From Halarcobacter anaerophilus (GTDB taxonomy: Bacteria > Campylobacterota > Campylobacteria > Campylobacterales > Arcobacteraceae), in NCBI RefSeq assembly GCF_006459125.1, contig NZ_CP041070.1:1364001-1428000 (forward strand): a DNA stretch of 64,000 bases. The letters run 5' to 3'. Each line of letters starts with the position of its first letter. Position 1 is the first letter of the stretch. The notes under the pieces were generated by a model, which did not search any database, was not told the origin of the DNA, and saw only the letters and a program-made list of their open reading frames with translations. A program made the translations under genes and the position numbers. Positions 36,206-55,444 of this stretch are shown here, one piece after another.

Positions 36206-37696
36206 TTAAATAGTTCTCCATTTTTTAGGACCAGTAGTATGAATAGAGTTACCCTCAGTGTCAACGGCAACGGTAACAGGCATGTCTTTAACCTCAAACT
36301 CGTAAATAGCTTCCATTCCCATCTCTTCAAATGCAAGAACTTTAGCACCTTTAATAGATTGTGAAATTAAATAAGCAGCTCCACCTGTTGCAATTAAATA
36401 CATTGATTTATACTCTTTGATTAAATCAATTGTTGGTTGTTTTCTCTCTGCTTTTCCAATCATTCCCATGATTCCTATTTCCATCATATCTTTTGTAAAT
36501 TTATCCATTCTTGTTGATGTTGTTGGTCCGGCAGGTCCAACTACTTCATCTCTAACTGGATCAACAGGTCCGACATAATAAATAAATCTATCTTTTAAAT
36601 CTACTCCGTTTGGAAGTGGTTTCCCTGCATTTTTATATTCAACTATTTTTTTATGAGCAGCATCTCTTGCAGTTAAGATTTTTCCTGATAGAAGTAATGT
36701 ATCTCCAGATTTAAATTGAGACAAGTTCTCTTTTGTTAAATCTTCTATATTTACTCTTTTAATAGTATCCATTGGTAATTCAATATCTGGCCATAGATCT
36801 AAATCAGGTTTATTAAACGTAGCAGGTCCGTTTCCGTCTAATTCAAAATGAATATGTCTAGTAGCTGCACAGTTTGGAATCATAGCTACAGGTTTAGATG
36901 CCGCGTGACAGGGATAATCTAAGATTTTTACATCAAGTACTGTTGTAATACCACCTAATCCTTGTGCTCCCATTCCTAGTTTATTAATATCTTCATATAA
37001 TTTAAGTCTTAACTCTTCAACTGCGTTTTTAGGACCTCTTGCTTTAAGTTCATGAATATCTAAATGACCCATTAAAGACTCTTTTGCCATTAGCATTGCT
37101 TTTTCGGGATTTCCTCCGATACCAATTCCCAAGATTCCAGGAGGACACCATCCTGCTCCCATATGTGCTACATTTTCCATAACCCAGTCATAAATACTAT
37201 CTGATGGATTTAATACTGTAAATTTTGATTTATTTTCACTTCCTCCACCTTTTGCTGCAACTGTTATCTCTATTTTATCTGAGTTATTTACACTATAATG
37301 AATAACAGCAGGAGTATTATTTTTTGTATTTTTTCTCTCCCCTGCAGGATCACTTACTATTGAGTATCTTAAAGTGTTATCTGGATCTGTATATCCTTGT
37401 GCTACACCTGCGTTTATAATATCTTCTAACTCATTTTGGATATCAAGGTCTGCTTTTGTACCTACTTTTATAAATACGTTTACGCTTCCTGTATCTTGGC
37501 AAAGAGGTCTATGTCCCATTGCACACATTTTTGAGTTTATTAATATTTGTCCGATTGCATTTTTTGCTGCTTCACTTTTCTCTTTCTCATATGCTTCTAC
37601 CATCCCTTTTACGAAATCTTCCGGATGGTAGTACGATATATATTGTATTGCGTCTGCGATACTCTCTTTTATATCTCTTTCTGTTATTTTAGCCAT
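36206..37696 (-). CDS. Fumarate hydratase class I, iron-sulfur type
   Basis: 496 residues with both class I halves in one chain: an alpha-like part with PLCQDTGSVNVF, HMGAGWCPPGILGIGIGG, PCHAASKPVAMIPNCAATRH (cysteines that would hold a 4Fe-4S cluster) and a beta-like part from GDTLLLSGKILTARDAAHKK onward. Hydrates fumarate to malate; this class is oxygen- and superoxide-sensitive. Related tartrate dehydratases share the fold, but a full-length fused chain beside fumC favours fumarase. Own terminator downstream. Confidence 0.9.
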   Translation of the reverse strand: MAKITERDIKESIADAIQYISYYHPEDFVKGMVEAYEKEKSEAAKNAIGQILINSKMCAMGHRPLCQDTGSVNVFIKVGTKADLDIQNELEDIINAGVAQGYTDPDNTLRYSIVSDPAGERKNTKNNTPAVIHYSVNNSDKIEITVAAKGGGSENKSKFTVLNPSDSIYDWVMENVAHMGAGWCPPGILGIGIGGNPEKAMLMAKESLMGHLDIHELKARGPKNAVEELRLKLYEDINKLGMGAQGLGGITTVLDVKILDYPCHAASKPVAMIPNCAATRHIHFELDGNGPATFNKPDLDLWPDIELPMDTIKRVNIEDLTKENLSQFKSGDTLLLSGKILTARDAAHKKIVEYKNAGKPLPNGVDLKDRFIYYVGPVDPVRDEVVGPAGPTTSTRMDKFTKDMMEIGIMGMIGKAERKQPTIDLIKEYKSMYLIATGGAAYLISQSIKGAKVLAFEEMGMEAIYEFEVKDMPVTVAVDTEGNSIHTTGPKKWRTI

Positions 37697-45076: not shown

Positions 45077-47216
45077 TTAAAAGCTCTCCCATTCATCTTC
45101 ATTTTCACTTTTTTTAGAAATAAACTCTTTTTTTGTATTACTTTTTCTTTTTTCCGGTGATCTAGTTTTAGGTTTTTCTTCATATTCTATATCACTTAAG
45201 TTTTGTGTTGTTTTTCCGTCAAAATTGTTTATCTCTACATTTTTTACAACATCAAGTGCAATTTTATTTGTCTCATTTGCAATAGTGTTTGTTTTATCTG
45301 CAATGGCAGCATTTTCTTGAGTAAATCTATCTAGTTGATTCATTGCATCTGCTATTTGTGACATACCTATGGTTTGCTCTTTTGCGGCATTTGACACATC
45401 ATCAATTAATTCATTTGTTTTTTCGATTTTCTCTTCTAATTGGGTAAATCCTTCAATCATTTTACTGCTGGTTACTTTACCGTTATTTGCTCTTTGCGTA
45501 GCATTTTCAACTAAATCTTTAATCTCTTTTGCGGCTTCGGCACTTCTGCTTGCCAGATTTCTAACTTCTTGGGCAACTACTGCAAAACCTTTTCCTGCTT
45601 CTCCTGCCGTTGCAGCTTCTACTGCTGCATTTAGTGAAAGAATATTTGTTTGGAAGGCTATTTGGTCGATTACGGAAATTGCTTCATTTATATTTTGTAC
45701 CGTATCATTTATCTCATCCATTGCTTTAACCGTATCATTTGCATTTATTTTACCTTCATTTGCAGAAGATTTTGTCTCATTTGATACACTTAACATCTCT
45801 TGGGCTTTTTCACTTGTTTGTTTTATATTTCCCGTGATTTCATCTATTGATGCAGCAGTCTCTTCTAAAGATGCAGCTTGTTCCGTTGCATTTTTATTTA
45901 ATGTTCCCACACTGCTGTTTAGTTCAGTTGCGCTTTTTCTTAAAGCTGTTCCGTCTCTTTGGCTGTCTTGTAAAAGTTGAGTCATCATTTTATTTAATTC
46001 AATAAGTTCCGAACCTATTTTTCCTGAATTGCTTCCATCTAATTTTGCAGTGAAGTCTCTTTGTGAATATTTACTTAATACTTCACTGATTTTATTTATA
46101 TTTTTACCTACTAATTTTTCCAGGTTTTCTAACATATTATTAAAAAGATTTTTTAACTCATTTAGTGTATCAGTAGAACTATTTAAGGTAATTTTTTTAT
46201 CTAAATATCCTTCTCCCACTCTATATACCGTCTCTTTTACATCTGCAATTAGTTTATTGTCTTCTTCAATACTAATTTTGATCTTTTCAATATTTTCATT
46301 GATATCTTTTGCCATTTGTCCGAATTCATCATTTGAATTAAGATCAATTTTTTGCGTATCAGTTACTTCTTTATTTAAATATTTAAAGAAAGAAGATAAA
46401 CCAGTTGAGATAGATTTTAAATTATGATTTAATCTTTTTACAATCAAGAAAATTATTACGGCAATAATCAATAATCCTATAACAGATCCTATAATAGAAA
46501 AATTTCTAATAAAGTTTGCATTTGCAAGATACTCTTTTTCGGGGGCTGCCATAACAAAAGACCATTTTTTATCTGTTCCTTGTATATCAAAAGGTTTAGA
46601 ATAAAATAAAGATTTTAAATTATCATCTGCCGAAACTTTTAGAAATTTGGTATCTTTACCGTTTTTTGCATTTTCAATCAATTTTTTATAATCACGATCA
46701 TTTTTTGTTACGTCTAAAAGATCTTTTGCAAGGAAATCTTTATTTGGATGCCCTAATACCATCCCGTAACTGTCTATTATAAAAGCATAGGCATGATCGA
46801 AGATATTGACCGTTTTTATCATAACCGTTCTGACCTTTTAATTCAGGGTTGGATTCAAAAAGAAGTTCTTTATCTTTTGTTTTAAACCAAAATCCTAAGA
46901 TATCTTCATTATATTTTGATAAAGATTTTAAATAAGCAATAGTCTCTTTCTCATCAATTTTTGCGTTTGTATTTAATGCTTCTTCAAATTTTAAAGCCAA
47001 AGTTTTTGCAATAACTATCGTCTGATTAACTCTATTTTGAATTTGTGCGGCATATTTGCCGGAAGCTTCATTTATAAGATGTTCAACATCTTTTTGTGCT
47101 GTTTCGTATGAAAACTTAGTTACAAAAAATATAGTTAAACTAAAGACTACTAAAGTAGTTCCTAAGATAGATAACAAAAGCTTATTACCAAAGCTCATTT
47201 TTTTTGATTTAAACAT
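45077..47216 (-). pseudogene. Methyl-accepting chemotaxis protein, broken within its Cache sensor
   Basis: Two pieces of one chemoreceptor in different frames. The 5' piece (47216-46740) has membrane helix 1 and the start of a Cache domain up to GQNGYDKNGQY, then runs out of frame. The 3' piece (from ATG 46822 to 45077) picks up at the end of the Cache domain (FDHAYAFIIDSYGMVLGHP), then helix 2, HAMP, signalling domain with [15 protein letters not shown] and a C-terminal EDEWESF tail. The middle of the sensor, expected to be about 100 residues, is missing. The 14 bases at 46803-46816 can be read as either edge, which suggests deletion between short repeats. The 3' piece could still give a receptor-like protein with one helix. 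Confidence 0.8.
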
Positions 47217-47327: not shown

Positions 47328-48170
47328 TTATTCAACTATTTGATGAAGTTTACTGCATTGGGACAGATGAATATCTGCTCCAGATATATCTTTCATAATA
47401 TCTTCAAAAGAGTGGAAACGTGCATTATAAACATAAACAAAGATTTCATCACCTTTTTGTAAAAAGTTACTTTTCCCAAATTCCGTATATGCTGTTGCTC
47501 CTGCTGCTATTAAAATCCCTTTATGGTTGTTTAGATTTTTTATTAGAGGATTTATCTCTTCTAGAGGTCCGGTCTCTTCTTGATTGTTAAATTTTTCAAT
47601 CATCCATTTTTTTAATTGTTCAAAAAAGTATGAATATGAATTTACGGCACTGATTGTTCCGTAATGTTTTAAAATTCCATCTCTTCTTACAAAGGAAGCT
47701 ATATGAAATTTATTTAGTATCCCTTCTTTGTTAAAACTGTCTATTTCTATAAAATCAGGCGCAATTCCTTTTGAGTTATCTCCCCAGTTTTTCTTAGTAC
47801 TTAGTTTATTACCGTTTTGGATTCTGTTTGAGCAGTCGTTAAATGCACCGAAATATTTCGGTTTCAAATCTATTAACTTACCGTTTTCAAAAACAAAATC
47901 ACAAAGTAGGGCAACTTCTGCTTCTATTTGTAGCTGTTCTATATTGTTATGATTTATCTTTTCCGTACTAAAAGGGAAATTCCCTAAAAATGATTGATGA
48001 TTTGGAATATAAAAAGGAAATAATCCTTTTGGAGCATCTTTCTCTTTTGTTTCAATCACCGAAAACTCATCTGCTTCTCCTGCTTCTCCTAAATGATTAG
48101 CAAAATTTCCTGCAACACCAAAACCCAAATAATCTTTTAACTCTTCAAGATTAATATTATATTTTTTCAT
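47328..48170 (-). CDS. DUF5718 family protein
   Basis: 280 residues. GFGVAGNFANHLGEAGEADEF near the N-terminus and IQIEAEVALLCDF-like segments fit DUF5718, a family I recall from Campylobacterota; the layout with a central acidic EAEVALLCD and later GDEIFVYVYNARFHS resembles the fumarylacetoacetase-hydrolase fold, but this is an inference. Soluble, cytoplasmic, no signal. Function unknown. Single gene with own terminator. Confidence 0.7.
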   Translation of the reverse strand: MKKYNINLEELKDYLGFGVAGNFANHLGEAGEADEFSVIETKEKDAPKGLFPFYIPNHQSFLGNFPFSTEKINHNNIEQLQIEAEVALLCDFVFENGKLIDLKPKYFGAFNDCSNRIQNGNKLSTKKNWGDNSKGIAPDFIEIDSFNKEGILNKFHIASFVRRDGILKHYGTISAVNSYSYFFEQLKKWMIEKFNNQEETGPLEEINPLIKNLNNHKGILIAAGATAYTEFGKSNFLQKGDEIFVYVYNARFHSFEDIMKDISGADIHLSQCSKLHQIVE

Positions 48171-48424: not shown

Positions 48425-49408
48425 TTAAGCAAAAAATCTTTTTTCTGTTTCATCTAATAATTTAGCTCCTGAGAATTTTGCTCTTTGAACCAATTCCCAA
48501 AAGTATCTGTATGTAGCTCTATCGTGTAACTCTCCATCATATTGGATTGGTCCCCACTCTGCGTCTTGAGCTTTGATTAAGATATTTTGAGCAGATTCAA
48601 GCTCTGTAAAATCAGGTTTCATAGCATCAACGATTGCTTGAACTTGTGTTGGGTAAATAGACCACATTCTCATAAATCCAAACTCATTTCTAGCTCTCTC
48701 CGCATCTTTATATGTTTGATATGGATTTTTAAGATCTAAGGTAACATTGTGGCAAGGGATTACATGGTTTTGAATTGCCGCTTGGCATACTTTTGCTTTT
48801 GCAGCGCCTATTAATCTATGTTCAAATTGTCCCGGACTTCTCATATTAATTGCAGGAATTGCTCCTTGATATCCTGATACAAAGTCCATAAGTCCAAAAT
48901 CTAATACTTGCAGCCAAGGTAGAGTTGCAATTTTTTCTACATCTTCCAATGCACCGTGAGTTTCAATAAGTACATGAATAGGGATCTCTCTACTAATACC
49001 TGCTTTTTTTGCCGTTTCTTGAATATACTCAATTTGAGTTTTTGCATCTTCATAACAAGTAGATTTAGGTAGTGTGATATATGCTAACCTTTCTCCTGCA
49101 CCTGATACTAAAATATCAATATCTTGTCTCCAATCAGGATGTGAGAAATCATGGATTCTAGTTCCTGCCATACCGTATGGATTCTCTTCGCTAGTTACAA
49201 CTCTAACAATCATTTGTGCATGTTCTACTTCTTTACCTGTTTCTGCTCCATCTTCGCAGTCACAAGTAATATCAAAAACAGGTCCTAGCTTTTTTTGCAT
49301 CTCGAAACCTTTTTTAATAAGTTTCTCACTTCCTGCAAAGTGCTCACAAGTTGGAATAATCGGTAAACTTTTTCCAGATTCAAATAGTGCTTCATTAGGG
49401 TGTGTCAT
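48425..49408 (-). CDS. HpcH/HpaI-CitE family CoA-ester lyase
   Basis: 327 residues, TIM barrel. PIIPTCEHFAGSEKLIKKG, ITCDCEDGAE (Mg-binding acid), RIHDFSHPDW, HVLIETHGALEDV (Mg-binding Glu) and MRMWSIYPTQVQAI (nucleotide/CoA end) are the citrate-lyase-beta pattern. The substrate could be citramalyl-CoA, beta-methylmalyl-CoA or malyl-CoA. Last gene of the four-gene unit, separated from the hydratase gene by a 179-nt spacer; AAAAAGGA upstream of ATG 49408. Confidence 0.85.
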   Translation of the reverse strand: MTHPNEALFESGKSLPIIPTCEHFAGSEKLIKKGFEMQKKLGPVFDITCDCEDGAETGKEVEHAQMIVRVVTSEENPYGMAGTRIHDFSHPDWRQDIDILVSGAGERLAYITLPKSTCYEDAKTQIEYIQETAKKAGISREIPIHVLIETHGALEDVEKIATLPWLQVLDFGLMDFVSGYQGAIPAINMRSPGQFEHRLIGAAKAKVCQAAIQNHVIPCHNVTLDLKNPYQTYKDAERARNEFGFMRMWSIYPTQVQAIVDAMKPDFTELESAQNILIKAQDAEWGPIQYDGELHDRATYRYFWELVQRAKFSGAKLLDETEKRFFA

Positions 49409-49587: not shown

Positions 49588-50658
49588 TTATTTTTTTGTT
49601 TTATTTTTTGGTATGATTACTGTGTAATCTAAATCAAGTACAACATTTTTTAAGTACTTACCGTCTTCGTCTTTTGGATTCAAAATCTCTTCAGATTTTT
49701 GATTTTTAACTGCAATAGTTCTTAATCTTAACAATCCAATATCCTCTCTTTTATGATCAATAGTATCAATAATCTCAGTATAAGCGTAAATTGTATCTCC
49801 CGCATAAGTGGGATTACAATGGCTTCCGCTGTTTATTGCATATATCCATTGGGCATTTTGCAAGCCGTTAAAAGAGATTGCCCTTGCCATAGAGATAATA
49901 ATTCCACCGTACATAAGTCTTTGACCCATTGGTGTACTTTTCATCATATGGTCGTTGAAGTGAACTTTTGCATTGTTTTGATATAACTTTGTTGCCAAAG
50001 TATGGTCACTGTCATCGATTGTAATACCTTCGGGGTGATTTAGTCTTTCACCTTTTTCATAATCTTCAAAGAAAAATTCTCCGCCTGTTGCATTCGTATC
50101 AACACACTCTATTTTAGGAATATTAATTTCATCTAAAATAGGTGTTGTTTCACTAAAAGTCGGAACTTCTTTAATACCTGTTAAAGTTTTTTTGTCTTTT
50201 TTGTGAACCATAACCCATCTTTTAAAGTTTAATACCTCTTCATTGTTTTGGTTTACCCCAATAGAGTGTACATATACAACTCCGCTTTTACCGTTTGAGT
50301 TCTCTTTTAACCCAATTACGGTAGATGTCATAGAAACAGTATCTCCAACATATACAGGAGTAGGAAAACTAATCTCTGCATATCCCAAGTTTGCAATTGC
50401 ATTTAATGATATGTCTTGAACAGATTTACCAAATGTCATATGGAACATCAAAACATCATCTATGGGTCTTTTTTCATATCCAAACTCTTTTGCAACTTCA
50501 TTTGAAGAGTGAAGAGCAAATCTAGAACCGGTAAAAGCTATGTATAAAGATACATCTCCTTCACTGATTGTTCTAGGAAGAGGATGAACTATTTTTTGAC
50601 CCATATAAAAGTCTTCAAAAAAGTTCCCTTTATTTATTTTGGTGCTTATTTTTGACAC
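49588..50658 (-). CDS. Double-hotdog MaoC family hydratase (mesaconyl-CoA hydratase-like)
   Basis: 356 residues in two MaoC/hotdog repeats: GNFFEDFYMGQKIVHPLPRT begins the first, GGEFFFEDYEKGERLNHPEG the second. Hydratase-type acid/His region DDSDHTLATKLYQN in the second repeat and ISEGDVSLYIAFTG in the first. Length and layout match the mesaconyl-CoA hydratase (Mch/Mcd, ~340 residues) of the ethylmalonyl-CoA and 3-hydroxypropionate routes; itaconyl-CoA hydratase is related. It sits 9 nt after the synthetase-lyase fusion. Confidence 0.85.
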   Translation of the reverse strand: MSKISTKINKGNFFEDFYMGQKIVHPLPRTISEGDVSLYIAFTGSRFALHSSNEVAKEFGYEKRPIDDVLMFHMTFGKSVQDISLNAIANLGYAEISFPTPVYVGDTVSMTSTVIGLKENSNGKSGVVYVHSIGVNQNNEEVLNFKRWVMVHKKDKKTLTGIKEVPTFSETTPILDEINIPKIECVDTNATGGEFFFEDYEKGERLNHPEGITIDDSDHTLATKLYQNNAKVHFNDHMMKSTPMGQRLMYGGIIISMARAISFNGLQNAQWIYAINSGSHCNPTYAGDTIYAYTEIIDTIDHKREDIGLLRLRTIAVKNQKSEEILNPKDEDGKYLKNVVLDLDYTVIIPKNKTKK

Positions 50659-50667
50659 GTTTTCTCC

Positions 50668-53187
50668 TTATTTACCAAATAGGTTTTGACCTAAAGCTTT
50701 ATATGTTTCGTAAAGGGTAATCATCTTTTTAGCCCATTTGATTTTACATTTATCAATAAGTTTATCTTTATATAAAATTACCTCTTTACCCTCTTTTTCA
50801 GCCTCTTCATACTTATTTATCATCTCTTCATACTCTAAAACTTCTGCTTGTTTTGGAGTAAAAATATCGTTTATATACTCAATTTGCACGGGATGAACTA
50901 AAGCTTTACCGTCAAATCCTAGGTTAAAGGCATCTTTTGTCGAATCTTCGCACGCAAATTCATCATGAACATCATAATGTGGTCCGTCAATAACCGTTTT
51001 ACCGTATGCTTTTGCAGATAGTGCAATTCTGGCAAGGTAATTAAACATAGCTTTTGAACCTCTTTTTATATCTATTTGAAGTCTGTTTGCAAGTTTGTTT
51101 GAACCTACAACAACTACTTCAAGTTTAGAACTAACCCTGCAAATTTCAGGAGAGTTCAAAATAGCAAGAGGAGTCTCTATCATAACCATCATAGTTAGAT
51201 TCGGGTTTACTTCCATTAATGCTTTTTCTGCTTCCAAAACTTGTTCTGGAGTCTCGATTAGAGCAAATAAAATCGCATCTATATCAAGTTCTTTTGCTAG
51301 TTCCATATCTTTTTTAAAATCTTCTGTTCCAAGTTTATTTACTCTTAAAACTCTCTCTGATTCTCCAAAGTTTCCATTGAATTCACTGAATACTTTTTTT
51401 ACGATATTTCGACCCGGTTCTCTTTGGTCTTCCAAAATAGCTTCTAAATCAAAAATTACCGAATCAGCTAAAACTGTTTTTGCTTTTCTTGCATACTTTT
51501 CATTATATGAAGGAACAAAAAGCATTGATCTTCTAGCTTTATACTCAACAATTTCCTCTCCCGTCTCTTTTGCATGGTACTCTTCATGCAGCTGTTTAAC
51601 CAACTGTTTTCTTAAAACTTTACCGTTTTTTGTTCTTGGATAATCTTTAAGAGCATAGATAAGTTTTGGAGCTTTGTATTTAGCTAAATTCTTTTGTGAA
51701 TATGCCAGCACTTCCTCTTCTTGCTCTTTTGTTAACTCTTTATGTCCGATTACAGCAATAGCAACCAAAGTTTTATCTTTTTCTATTTCAAGACCAAAAG
51801 CAACACAATCTGCAACTAAAGGATGAGTTTTTACAACTCTTTCAATTTCGTGTGGAGATACTCTAAATCCAAAAGTATTGATAATATCATCTTTTCTTCC
51901 TATAAACCAGATATATCCGTCTTTATCTTTTTTTGCGTAATCTCCCGTAAAAAAATATCCGTCATGTTTAGCTTTTGCAGTCTCTTCATCTAACTGCCAA
52001 TACTCTATAAACAATCCAGGATCATCTTCTCCTATACAAATCATTCCCTCTTCTTCAACTCCTACTTCTTCAAGTGTTTCGGGATTTAGAAGTTTTACTA
52101 TATGTCCGGGTTGAACAAATCCGGCAGATCCCGGTCTAATAGGATTATAAATTGAGTGAGAAATATAATAAGAACATTCACTCATACCAATAGCTTCAAA
52201 AATATCTTGTTTGAATCTATCTCTCCATAATCCAATCATCTCATCAGATAGATGTTCTCCCGCACTCATACAATATCTAAGACTTGGGCAGTCATCAATC
52301 GTAAAATCTGTTTTTTGAATAATCTGTCTATAAATAGTCGGAACTCCTATAAATATAGTACATTTATGTTTTTTAATCAGATCTATCCATGTTGAAGCAT
52401 TATTCGCTCCTTCATATGCAATTACGGTGTGTCCATTAAATAATGGATCCATAAGAGCAGAACCTAATACATAAGTCCAGTTAAATTTTCCCGAATGCAT
52501 AATTCTGTCATTCTCTTTAAAATTAAACCAATATTGTGTAGCAGGAGTTCTTCCCACAAGTGATCTGTGTGAATGTAAAACACCTTTTGGATAACCTGTT
52601 GTTCCCGATGTATAAACCAAATATGCAGGTTCTCCCGCTTTTGAGTTATAGTGGTTTGGAGTTTTATCCGTATCTTCTAAGATTTGGTTTAATGCGTAAA
52701 CATTAATCCCTTTTGGTTTTTTATAATCTTCAACGCTATTGGTTCCTGCAACTATAATTGTTTTTAGGTTATCAACATTTTCTAAATAAGGAACTAGGTT
52801 TTCATACATAGATGCAGACATCACAATTGCACTTGCTTGTGAATCTTCTGCTAGATATTTAACTTCTGAACCGCTTAACAGTGTTGATGTAGGAACTGCA
52901 ATGATTCCTGCTTTTATACTTCCAAAAAACGAAATAGGGTAAGCAAGAGAGTTTTTTAGACAAACTAATACTCTATCTCTTGGTTTAATACCTATTGAGA
53001 TAAGGAAGTTACAAACTTGGTCTGATTTTTCCGATAACTCTTTATATGTGATTTCATCAGTTCCCAATTTGTCATCTTCAATAATCATTGCCGTATTATT
53101 TTCTTTTAAAGTTCCTAAATGTGAAGAGGTACAAGCAACACCTATATTTAAAAATTCAGGTACTTCAATTTTTAGATTTGTACTCAT
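50668..53187 (-). CDS. Fusion of acyl-CoA synthetase and CitE-type CoA-ester lyase
   Basis: 839 residues. Residues ~1-540: acyl-adenylate-forming ligase with YLVYTSGTTGYPKGVLHSH (P loop, ~190), FEAIGMSECSYY (A5), YFFTGDYAKKDKDGYIWFIG (A7/A8) and catalytic Lys in PRTKNGKVLRKQL (~525). Residues ~554-839: HpcH/CitE TIM-barrel lyase with SMLFVPSYNEKYARKA, SVIFDLEAILEDQ, MMVMIETPLAILNSPE and KALVHPVQIEYINDIFTP. Single open frame across the joint, so not a sequencing artefact of two genes. Such a fusion would activate an acid to its CoA thioester and cleave the hydrated CoA ester. Substrate unknown. Confidence 0.9.
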   Translation of the reverse strand: MSTNLKIEVPEFLNIGVACTSSHLGTLKENNTAMIIEDDKLGTDEITYKELSEKSDQVCNFLISIGIKPRDRVLVCLKNSLAYPISFFGSIKAGIIAVPTSTLLSGSEVKYLAEDSQASAIVMSASMYENLVPYLENVDNLKTIIVAGTNSVEDYKKPKGINVYALNQILEDTDKTPNHYNSKAGEPAYLVYTSGTTGYPKGVLHSHRSLVGRTPATQYWFNFKENDRIMHSGKFNWTYVLGSALMDPLFNGHTVIAYEGANNASTWIDLIKKHKCTIFIGVPTIYRQIIQKTDFTIDDCPSLRYCMSAGEHLSDEMIGLWRDRFKQDIFEAIGMSECSYYISHSIYNPIRPGSAGFVQPGHIVKLLNPETLEEVGVEEEGMICIGEDDPGLFIEYWQLDEETAKAKHDGYFFTGDYAKKDKDGYIWFIGRKDDIINTFGFRVSPHEIERVVKTHPLVADCVAFGLEIEKDKTLVAIAVIGHKELTKEQEEEVLAYSQKNLAKYKAPKLIYALKDYPRTKNGKVLRKQLVKQLHEEYHAKETGEEIVEYKARRSMLFVPSYNEKYARKAKTVLADSVIFDLEAILEDQREPGRNIVKKVFSEFNGNFGESERVLRVNKLGTEDFKKDMELAKELDIDAILFALIETPEQVLEAEKALMEVNPNLTMMVMIETPLAILNSPEICRVSSKLEVVVVGSNKLANRLQIDIKRGSKAMFNYLARIALSAKAYGKTVIDGPHYDVHDEFACEDSTKDAFNLGFDGKALVHPVQIEYINDIFTPKQAEVLEYEEMINKYEEAEKEGKEVILYKDKLIDKCKIKWAKKMITLYETYKALGQNLFGK

Positions 53188-53202: not shown

Positions 53203-54336
53203 TTATATTTGACCGTAAGGCCAGTTTTCTTTAAATGTATGAAGAGGCATTCTTTTTAATACTTCAAGTGCAAATAATTTATCCTCTTCTTTTAAACTGT
53301 TTAGAGCATAAGCTCTTAAAATATTTTGTAAAGATTTACCGAACATAGGAGGATCTAACATCTCTCCGTTATATCTTATTGCTCCGCTTAGAAGAGCATC
53401 TGCTTCAATTGCGGCTTTTAAAATAGATACATCTTTTGCAATCTCTTTTGGACTTGGAGTAAAAGCAACTTTACAAATATTTATATGATTTGGAGTAATT
53501 ACTTGTTTTCCTGTAAGTCCCATTGCTGTTTCTGTCTGAGCATGAGCATAAACATGTCTTGAAGCATCGTCTCCATGCAAGTCCAGCCATCTTCTAATCT
53601 CTTTTTTTTCGACACAAGAGTCAGGAAGTGAATTTGGAGTCAATAAAACTTCAACTCCTCCTATTACACCTTTCCCTTTGATTCTTGCTTGCATTGTAAG
53701 CATATTAAAAAATGTTTTTAACTCTTCAATCCAACCCTCGGCAGTAATTTTATAAGCCATTGCTTTTGAAAAATCGTGAATACCGAATACAACATGCTGT
53801 ACTGTTGAGTGACTCATCAGCTTATCTGCAATTTGCAAAGATTTCGGATGTTCAATAATCGGTTGAATTTGTAAATTACTTCCAATAGAGACTAACCATG
53901 AAGAGAGATCTCTAATTTCGGCATCTCCGTAAACTTCTCCTGCTTTTGCTAAAACTATTGCATCAATATATTTATGAACTTTTTTAATCATTTTAAGATC
54001 TTCATCATATTCATGTGTTCTAAAAGGGTTTATTCTAATTGCAATTTGAAAATCTCTTTCGGGAAACTTAGGTAACTCTTCAATTAAAAGTTTCCTACTC
54101 ATATCTTTCATTCTACAACCGTCTTCAAGGTCGAATAGCACAGTATGAGCTTTTGTTTTATAGGCATGTTTTTGTAATCTGTATTTTGCCTGTTCCATAG
54201 TTTCATAAGTACCGTCCAAAGGGTTAAACTTAATTGGCGGATAATAAATCTGAATACCTGGCCATTTACCTCCAAGTACCGGTTTTAAGTCATCGTTAGC
54301 GGTTAATTTTGATAAATCTATAAAAGATGAATTCAT
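53203..54336 (-). CDS. Third HpcH/CitE-family lyase-like protein
   Basis: 377 residues, TIM barrel. KAHTVLFDLEDGCRMKDMSR (metal-binding acids), IAIRINPFRTHEY, QIQPIIEHPKSLQIAD (Glu) and VVFGIHDFSKAMAY are lyase-family positions, though the family branch is more distant from the other two here. May be a malyl-CoA-type lyase, a thioesterase of the same fold (as malyl-CoA thioesterase) or a regulatory paralogue. First gene of the unit, 15 nt before the fusion gene; GAGGTAATT precedes ATG 54336. Confidence 0.78.
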   Translation of the reverse strand: MNSSFIDLSKLTANDDLKPVLGGKWPGIQIYYPPIKFNPLDGTYETMEQAKYRLQKHAYKTKAHTVLFDLEDGCRMKDMSRKLLIEELPKFPERDFQIAIRINPFRTHEYDEDLKMIKKVHKYIDAIVLAKAGEVYGDAEIRDLSSWLVSIGSNLQIQPIIEHPKSLQIADKLMSHSTVQHVVFGIHDFSKAMAYKITAEGWIEELKTFFNMLTMQARIKGKGVIGGVEVLLTPNSLPDSCVEKKEIRRWLDLHGDDASRHVYAHAQTETAMGLTGKQVITPNHINICKVAFTPSPKEIAKDVSILKAAIEADALLSGAIRYNGEMLDPPMFGKSLQNILRAYALNSLKEEDKLFALEVLKRMPLHTFKENWPYGQI

Positions 54337-54709: not shown

Positions 54710-55444
54710 GTGCAACCAAGTAAAAATAAATCCTTTACCAAAGGACTTCAAGTACTAAAAGAGATAATGAGTTGTAATAAACCTATTACGGCAAATGTTC
54801 TTTGTCAAAAACTAAATATAGATAAAAGTACAATGTCAAGACTTGTAACCACTCTTATGAATGAAGATTTTATAGAGTATAAAGGCGATTCAAAAGAGAT
54901 TATTTTAAGTGATATTCTTAGAAAAATCGTTTATAAAGATGATAGAGAAAAAATTGTAGAAAAAACAAGTGCTTTATTGGATGAAATCTTCTATTTAACG
55001 GATGAAGCTTCATATATAGGAATTTTGGATAATAATGCAACTTTGTATTTAAACCAAGTGGATAAATCAAACAGAGTTATTAAAACAAGGGATTCTATAG
55101 GTTTTCATTCTCCTTTGCACTCAAATGCTTTCGGTAAAATTTTAATAGCTTTTAGCAATCAAGTTGATATAAACTCTTTAAAACTTACAAAATTTACTTC
55201 AAATACGGTTACAAGTATAACAAAACTTCAAAAAGAGATTGAGAAGATAAAAGAGACAGGTTATGCAATAGGAAACGAAGAACATGAATTCGGACTTAAA
55301 TCAATAGCCGCACCGTACTTTAACAAAAAAAATGAATTTGTGGGAGCTGTAGGCATTTCAGGTCTATCCGTAAGGCTTGATGAGGAAAAACTTCATAAAT
55401 ACGGCGAAGAGATTTTAAAACTCTCTAACGCTTATCATAAATAG
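54710..55444 (+). CDS. IclR family transcriptional regulator
   Basis: 244 residues starting at GTG 54710 (AAAGAG about 11 nt upstream; the next in-frame Met lies inside the DNA-binding domain). N-terminal winged helix (FTKGLQVLKEIMSCNKPITA, then NIDKSTMSRLVTTLMNEDFI) and C-terminal IclR effector domain (~75-244; FHSPLHSNAFGKILIAF, EHEFGLKSIAAPYFNK, VGAVGISG). IclR members bind small organic acids such as glyoxylate or pyruvate; divergent location points to control of the lyase operon. Confidence 0.92.
   Translation: MQPSKNKSFTKGLQVLKEIMSCNKPITANVLCQKLNIDKSTMSRLVTTLMNEDFIEYKGDSKEIILSDILRKIVYKDDREKIVEKTSALLDEIFYLTDEASYIGILDNNATLYLNQVDKSNRVIKTRDSIGFHSPLHSNAFGKILIAFSNQVDINSLKLTKFTSNTVTSITKLQKEIEKIKETGYAIGNEEHEFGLKSIAAPYFNKKNEFVGAVGISGLSVRLDEEKLHKYGEEILKLSNAYHK

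Follow-up and report, generated by a model that had tools for sequence, protein, structure and literature searches.

We analyzed a window of 64,000 nucleotides from Halarcobacter anaerophilus, in which one gene encodes an acyl-CoA ligase joined to a CitE-like domain. It appears on balance probable that this protein combines an active ligase with a pseudo-lyase, that it arose from one fusion, and that it serves a citramalate-type route tied to the methylcitrate cycle. The reading of one active ligase plus a pseudo-lyase is based on the absence of a metal-binding aspartate from all fusions examined here (77 of 77), on purifying selection and on the retention of a lid aspartate.

Architecture of the fusion and its operon

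The fusion is a single uninterrupted frame of 839 codons that begins with ATG on the minus strand; a plus-strand reading of the same interval was rejected because of stops throughout. Pfam domains were AMP-binding at residues 36-397 (E 1e-71), AMP-binding_C at 447-523 and HpcH_HpaI at 553-766 (6.5e-29). The lyase half starts with RRS at residue 552, and the pLDDT of the linker fell below 50 at residues 539-548. A sequencing or assembly artefact was also rejected, since 29 of 60 related genomes carry a full-length fusion (65-92% identity) with no internal stop, a conservation far beyond chance. Thus, the frame, the Pfam domains and the relatives bear out the preliminary description of one uninterrupted ligase-lyase frame as a true fusion. 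The features of the locus are listed below, where CITE377 and CITE327 denote intact CitE-like proteins; elsewhere, LIG, LYA and MAOC denote ligase, lyase and hydratase.

50668-53187, minus strand: fusion of acyl-CoA ligase and predicted CitE-like pseudo-lyase, 839 aa (ORF, translation, Pfam)
51574-53187, minus strand: ligase half, residues 1-538 (Pfam PF00501/PF13193; P loop, GRKDD, Lys523)
51538-51600, minus strand: linker, residues ~530-550 (low model confidence; putative former ligase stop and lyase start)
50671-51534, minus strand: CitE/Mcl-like predicted pseudo-lyase half, residues 552-839 (Pfam HpcH_HpaI; model; fold match)
53203-54336, minus strand: CITE377, intact CitE-like lyase, first gene of the operon (Pfam HpcH_HpaI; Glu, Asp, Arg and lid Asp present)
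49588-50658, minus strand: double-hotdog MaoC hydratase of the mesaconyl-CoA hydratase (Mch) type (PF19315 MC_hydratase; phmmer)
48425-49408, minus strand: CITE327, intact Mcl-related CitE-like lyase (Pfam HpcH_HpaI; metal and lid residues present)
54710-55444, plus strand: divergent IclR-family regulator with a BhcR-like score (Pfam IclR_C; BhcR model 125 bits, cut-off 350)

The operon genes, all on the minus strand, are separated by 15 bp (CITE377 to fusion), 9 bp (fusion to MaoC) and 179 bp (MaoC to CITE327) and are followed by a DUF5718 gene; the order CITE377-fusion-MaoC-CITE327 was constant among relatives with the fusion. CITE377 and CITE327 each retain both metal ligands as well as the Arg and the lid Asp, and the closest solved structures to CITE327 were putative citrate lyases (3qqw/3r4i). 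The hydratase matched 8hgn, a beta-methylmalyl-CoA dehydratase (phmmer E 7e-100), and 4e3e, a related MaoC protein (2e-112); it scored below the NCBIfam equivalog cut-offs, with 87 bits against the 560 required by the haloarchaeal Mch equivalog model. A MaoC hydratase had been named as the next gene and a C5-dicarboxylate (mesaconate/citramalate) context had been proposed, and the type and position of this gene agreed with both.

Many loci of Arcobacteraceae and Sulfurospirillum have the IclR regulator next to the operon, and the best match of the regulator from the window was BhcR, the regulator of the glyoxylate-related beta-hydroxyaspartate cycle. The DUF5718 gene (47328-48170) lies 3' of the operon in most fusion-bearing Arcobacteraceae. 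An insert of ~1.9 kb is sometimes present between them, and in one genome (G025, locus L027) a class I fumarase was found within this gap. A methyl-accepting chemotaxis protein (window 45077-47216) appears to be broken into two frames that overlap (46740-47216 and 45077-46822), and this gene may thus carry a frameshift or a sequencing error.

The ligase half contains the P loop YTSGTTGYPKG (192-202), the GRKDD hinge (430-434) and Lys523 (NGK), and these motifs were invariant across 11 diverse fusions. The P loop, A8 hinge and catalytic A10 Lys of the AMP-forming ANL superfamily are therefore all found in one chain, with Pfam scores over the cut-off, and the complete adenylate-forming ligase described previously (P loop ~190, Lys ~525) indeed looks catalytically complete. 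The nearest solved relatives were 3etc, 8biq and 4wv3. None of the best 25 NCBIfam models was reached at its cut-off by the ligase half, and the best models were of the fatty-acid, benzoate or medium-chain type rather than AcsA. Although its substrate is not fixed by such sequence matches, the ligase half is most likely active, as a predicted ATP-dependent mesaconate:CoA ligase. It is unlikely, in our opinion, that it instead supplies the methylcitrate cycle as a propionyl-CoA (or acetyl-CoA) synthetase. Methylcitrate clusters frequently include such a synthetase and the module formed by these operon genes co-occurs with prpB (see below); however, the types of the best models argue against this assignment, and in nearly every locus the ligase adjoins a mesaconyl-CoA-type hydratase and lyases, which would be left unexplained.

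The lyase half and its metal site

In the malyl-CoA lyase (Mcl) of R. sphaeroides, the Mg2+ ligands Glu141 and Asp168 are described as absolutely conserved across the CitE superfamily, and the pair Glu44-Asp45 is conserved as well; Arg76 and the lid residue Asp299 are catalytic, and the lid closes the site of the adjoining subunit (PMC3832036). Two codons of the fusion lie at these positions:

51094-51096, minus strand: Lys698, at the position of the Mg2+-binding Asp168 in R. sphaeroides Mcl
50752-50754, minus strand: Asp812, the lid residue corresponding to Asp299 in R. sphaeroides Mcl

None of the 77 fusions had Asp at the Asp168 position (Lys in 46, Asn in 16, Thr in 9, Ser in 3, Arg in 2 and Gln in 1), and the 29 stand-alone lyases had Asp in 26 cases and Asn in 3. 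One residue of the Glu-Asp pair, which holds the metal waters, was deleted in all fusions shown (DLE-A versus DLED). The Mg ligand Glu671 was kept in 66 fusions and replaced by Asp, Ala or Gln in 11, whereas the catalytic Arg615 was Arg in 67 and Lys in 10. Asn697 was present in 76 fusions, and the lid position was Asp in all 77, compared with Glu in 26 and Gln in 3 of the 29 stand-alone forms.

The lyase half, modeled separately with AlphaFold (pLDDT 89), gave a TM-score of 0.86 to human CLYBL, and the model predicts a TIM-barrel fold with a C-terminal lid. Of the complete lyase barrel claimed in the preliminary description, the fold could thus be maintained but the active site could not; an alignment for lost catalytic residues, named there as a means of refutation, revealed that the metal site was gone in every fusion. 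The lyase half has diverged more rapidly than the ligase half (51-87% versus 72-94% identity). A decaying domain was rejected because the dN/dS of the lyase half (~0.05-0.17) is well below 1, and a role for Lys698 as a new catalytic lysine was rejected because the position varies (Lys, Asn, Thr, Ser, Arg or Gln). From these sequences we conclude that the lyase half is a predicted pseudo-lyase, folded and under purifying selection.

It had been suggested that both halves are active and hand CoA esters between their sites, with the MaoC hydratase acting between the two reactions. Both folds are complete, the hydratase is the next gene, and Asp812, Glu671 and Arg615 are mostly retained; however, the lost Mg-ligand Asp, the deletion in the Glu-Asp pair and the replacement of the remaining metal Glu and Arg in some fusions make such a bifunctional enzyme very unlikely. 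Because the metal site is lost throughout the fused clade, passage of CoA esters within the fusion is unsupported, and lyase activity would be redundant since the two other CitE-type lyases of the operon are intact and able to do the cleavage. An altered, metal-free activity of the lyase half, for example CoA-thioester hydrolysis with Asn697 and the lid Asp812 taking over, also seems improbable. The near invariance of these two residues and the strong purifying selection are consistent with it, as is the lid Glu of stand-alone relatives, which characterizes the malyl-CoA thioesterase branch (PMC3832036). However, the variation of the residue replacing the metal Asp points in the other direction. 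To our knowledge, no metal-free CitE enzyme has been described.

If the lyase half is a pseudo-lyase, as we favor, it would neither bind Mg2+ nor cleave or condense CoA esters, and it may be retained as a folded CoA-site or oligomerization domain. From Asp812 we infer that the lid might be supplied to a neighboring intact lyase (CITE377 or CITE327) within a mixed complex; the mean conservation of the lid hairpin was ordinary except for Asp812 and gave no proof of a lid acting in trans. The fusion would thus represent a pseudo-enzyme maintained by selection in an operon for CoA esters, while other bacteria retain intact stand-alone relatives.

Three stand-alone lyases of the Sedimenticola/Chromatiales type (L095, L102 and L103) have, without being fused, lost the metal Asp (SNANL) and carry Gln as the lid residue. 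Judging from their sequences, this is a second, independent loss.

Origin of the fusion and linkage to the methylcitrate cycle

A scan of ~85,000 species genomes yielded 330 matching stretches, 295 of which encode relatives. Among the best 80 of these 295, fused forms occurred in Arcobacteraceae, Sulfurospirillum, several gammaproteobacterial MAGs and one Nitrospirota MAG, and the ligase and lyase were separate adjacent genes (spacing -4 to +27 bp) in Kangiella, Thalassotalea, Sulfuricella and Thiobacillus. The five-gene Sulfuricella module has the same order as the fused operon (CITE377-LIG-LYA-MAOC-CITE327); in Methylophilaceae the ligase and lyase genes are separate and apart. All fused forms grouped as one clade in the ligase tree (100/100 support), and the fusion from the window fell within Arcobacteraceae, adjoining Malaciobacter. 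Several independent fusions were rejected on the basis of this clade, the sole 'solo' row (L066) being a contig cut at its end. One fused clade together with unfused adjacent neighbors is explained by a single stop-codon loss, through which neighboring co-translated ligase and lyase genes would have been joined once. The Nitrospirota copy (L071) comes from a 1.3 Mb Thermodesulfovibrionales MAG and is close to that of a Chromatiales MAG, which may be due to transfer or to misbinning of the contig.

In Methylophilaceae, the module is directly linked to genes of central metabolism: in one direction LYA-MAOC-CITE327-prpB-prpC-prpD are contiguous, and in the other the order is GntR-malic enzyme-sdhCDAB-CITE377-LIG-fumarase. 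We surveyed pathway genes in 39 genomes, comprising 31 with the module and 8 module-less Arcobacteraceae. All 31 module genomes had prpB (30 over the cut-off) compared with one of the eight module-less genomes. Within Arcobacteraceae the corresponding numbers were 15/15 and 1/8 for prpB (Fisher p 3e-5), and 15/15 and 0/8 for prpF. The window's genome has prpB-prpC-acnD-prpF at C1:2.576-2.582 Mb, its prpC scoring 420.3 bits against the 421.3 cut-off of the prpC subfamily model. Class I fumarase was found in 30 and malate synthase in 5 of the 31 module genomes, the latter including the window's genome. No isocitrate lyase was detected in any of the 39 genomes, and thus in none of the 31 with the module; this absence is non-discriminating in Arcobacteraceae and was rejected as proof of replacement, because module-less relatives also lack the enzyme. 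Among 149 genomes of one gammaproteobacterial order, 13 had CITE377 and 42 had isocitrate lyase with no overlap (0/13 versus 42/136, p 0.011, uncorrected for kinship).

A candidate gene is present for each step of the citramalate cycle. Class I fumarases hydrate mesaconate (PMC4682846), and one such gene lies in the window:

36206-37696, minus strand: class I fumarase, candidate mesaconase for citramalate/mesaconate (PF05681 match G000:C1:1400845-1401666)

A second, distant class I fumarase (G000:C1:386335-387825; L114:336-1826) is identical to it at 490 of 497 codons (stop included) and 1433 of 1491 nt. Fumarase pairs with equal family scores were also found in four related genomes, suggesting that the genes were duplicated recently or have undergone gene conversion; one member of the pair might act as the mesaconase.

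In the route that we infer, the ligase substrate, the direction, the assignment of each CitE and the lid role in trans are all predictions. Mesaconate would be formed from acetyl-CoA and pyruvate via one CitE and the fumarase, activated to mesaconyl-CoA by the ligase half, hydrated to beta-methylmalyl-CoA by MaoC and cleaved to propionyl-CoA and glyoxylate by the other intact CitE. The methylcitrate cycle would then convert propionyl-CoA and oxaloacetate to succinate and pyruvate. With pyruvate recycled, the net reaction would be acetyl-CoA + oxaloacetate -> succinate + glyoxylate, which is the isocitrate-lyase balance without isocitrate lyase.

The module could also run in reverse or catabolically, from glyoxylate and propionyl-CoA to pyruvate and acetyl-CoA, or use external mesaconate or citramalate. 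The lyase and hydratase steps are reversible, and the reverse direction was proposed for A. butzleri in 2007 (PMC2147049). Nevertheless, we consider it rather unlikely: an ATP-dependent ligase favors activation of free mesaconate, and in Methylophilaceae living on C1 compounds, the close joining of the module to prpBCD, sdh and fumarase points to central metabolism. An acetate-assimilation role for the forward route that we prefer is made less likely by the reported failure of A. butzleri to grow on either acetate or propionate (PMC2147049).

The methylcitrate cluster of Methylotenera has been described as lacking a known role (PMC3728764). Through its physical connection with prpBCD, sdh, malic enzyme and fumarase, the module would provide Methylophilaceae with a concrete supply of propionyl-CoA for their methylcitrate cycle, and it may substitute for the glyoxylate shunt in Arcobacteraceae, Kangiella and others. 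More tentatively, it is conceivable that a citramalate-to-glyoxylate branch and the methylcitrate cycle form a widespread, uncharted acetyl-CoA assimilation cycle in bacteria without isocitrate lyase, which would explain the Methylotenera cluster, and that in Campylobacterota the pseudo-lyase completes the sites of intact lyases in trans within a multi-enzyme complex.

Comparison with known systems

The preliminary description knew of no precedent for the joint. However, the architecture and a pathway guess are already known from the 2007 genome paper of Arcobacter butzleri, in which AB1918 has a CaiC domain (50-550) followed by a CitE domain (550-825), the cluster AB1917-AB1921 was predicted to interconvert glyoxylate + propionyl-CoA and pyruvate + acetyl-CoA, and the fumarase AB1921 lies directly at the cluster (PMC2147049). 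AB1918 shares architecture, operon and family with the fusion; the paper took the CitE domain as a possibly active lyase, contained no enzymology, and did not mention the lost metal site, the prp linkage or the unfused module of other phyla. The dead metal site, the fusion origin and the methylcitrate linkage appear to be new. No enzymology of the fusion was found in the open-access papers searched.

The malyl-CoA lyases of R. sphaeroides and Chloroflexus and human CLYBL resemble the lyase half in their lidded TIM barrel (TM-score 0.80-0.86) and in having both the Arg and the lid aspartate, whereas the fusion lacks the Mg2+-ligand Asp and is joined to a ligase. Itaconate degradation by RipABC uses a similar set of CoA activation, MaoC hydratase and CitE lyase, but with a CoA transferase instead of a ligase; the operon hydratase and lyases scored far below the RipB/RipC cut-offs. 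The second half of the Chloroflexus 3-hydroxypropionate bi-cycle, which converts glyoxylate and propionyl-CoA to pyruvate and acetyl-CoA, employs an Mch-type hydratase, Mcl-type lyases and the same C5 CoA esters, but with an intramolecular CoA transferase where the module has a ligase. Finally, the citramalate cycle suggested to operate in Rhodospirillum rubrum (acetyl-CoA + pyruvate -> citramalate -> mesaconate -> mesaconyl-CoA -> methylmalyl-CoA -> glyoxylate + propionyl-CoA; PMC8307300) is the same route as that proposed for the module, with the difference that propionyl-CoA is processed via succinyl-CoA in R. rubrum, whereas the genes linked to the module are those of the methylcitrate cycle.
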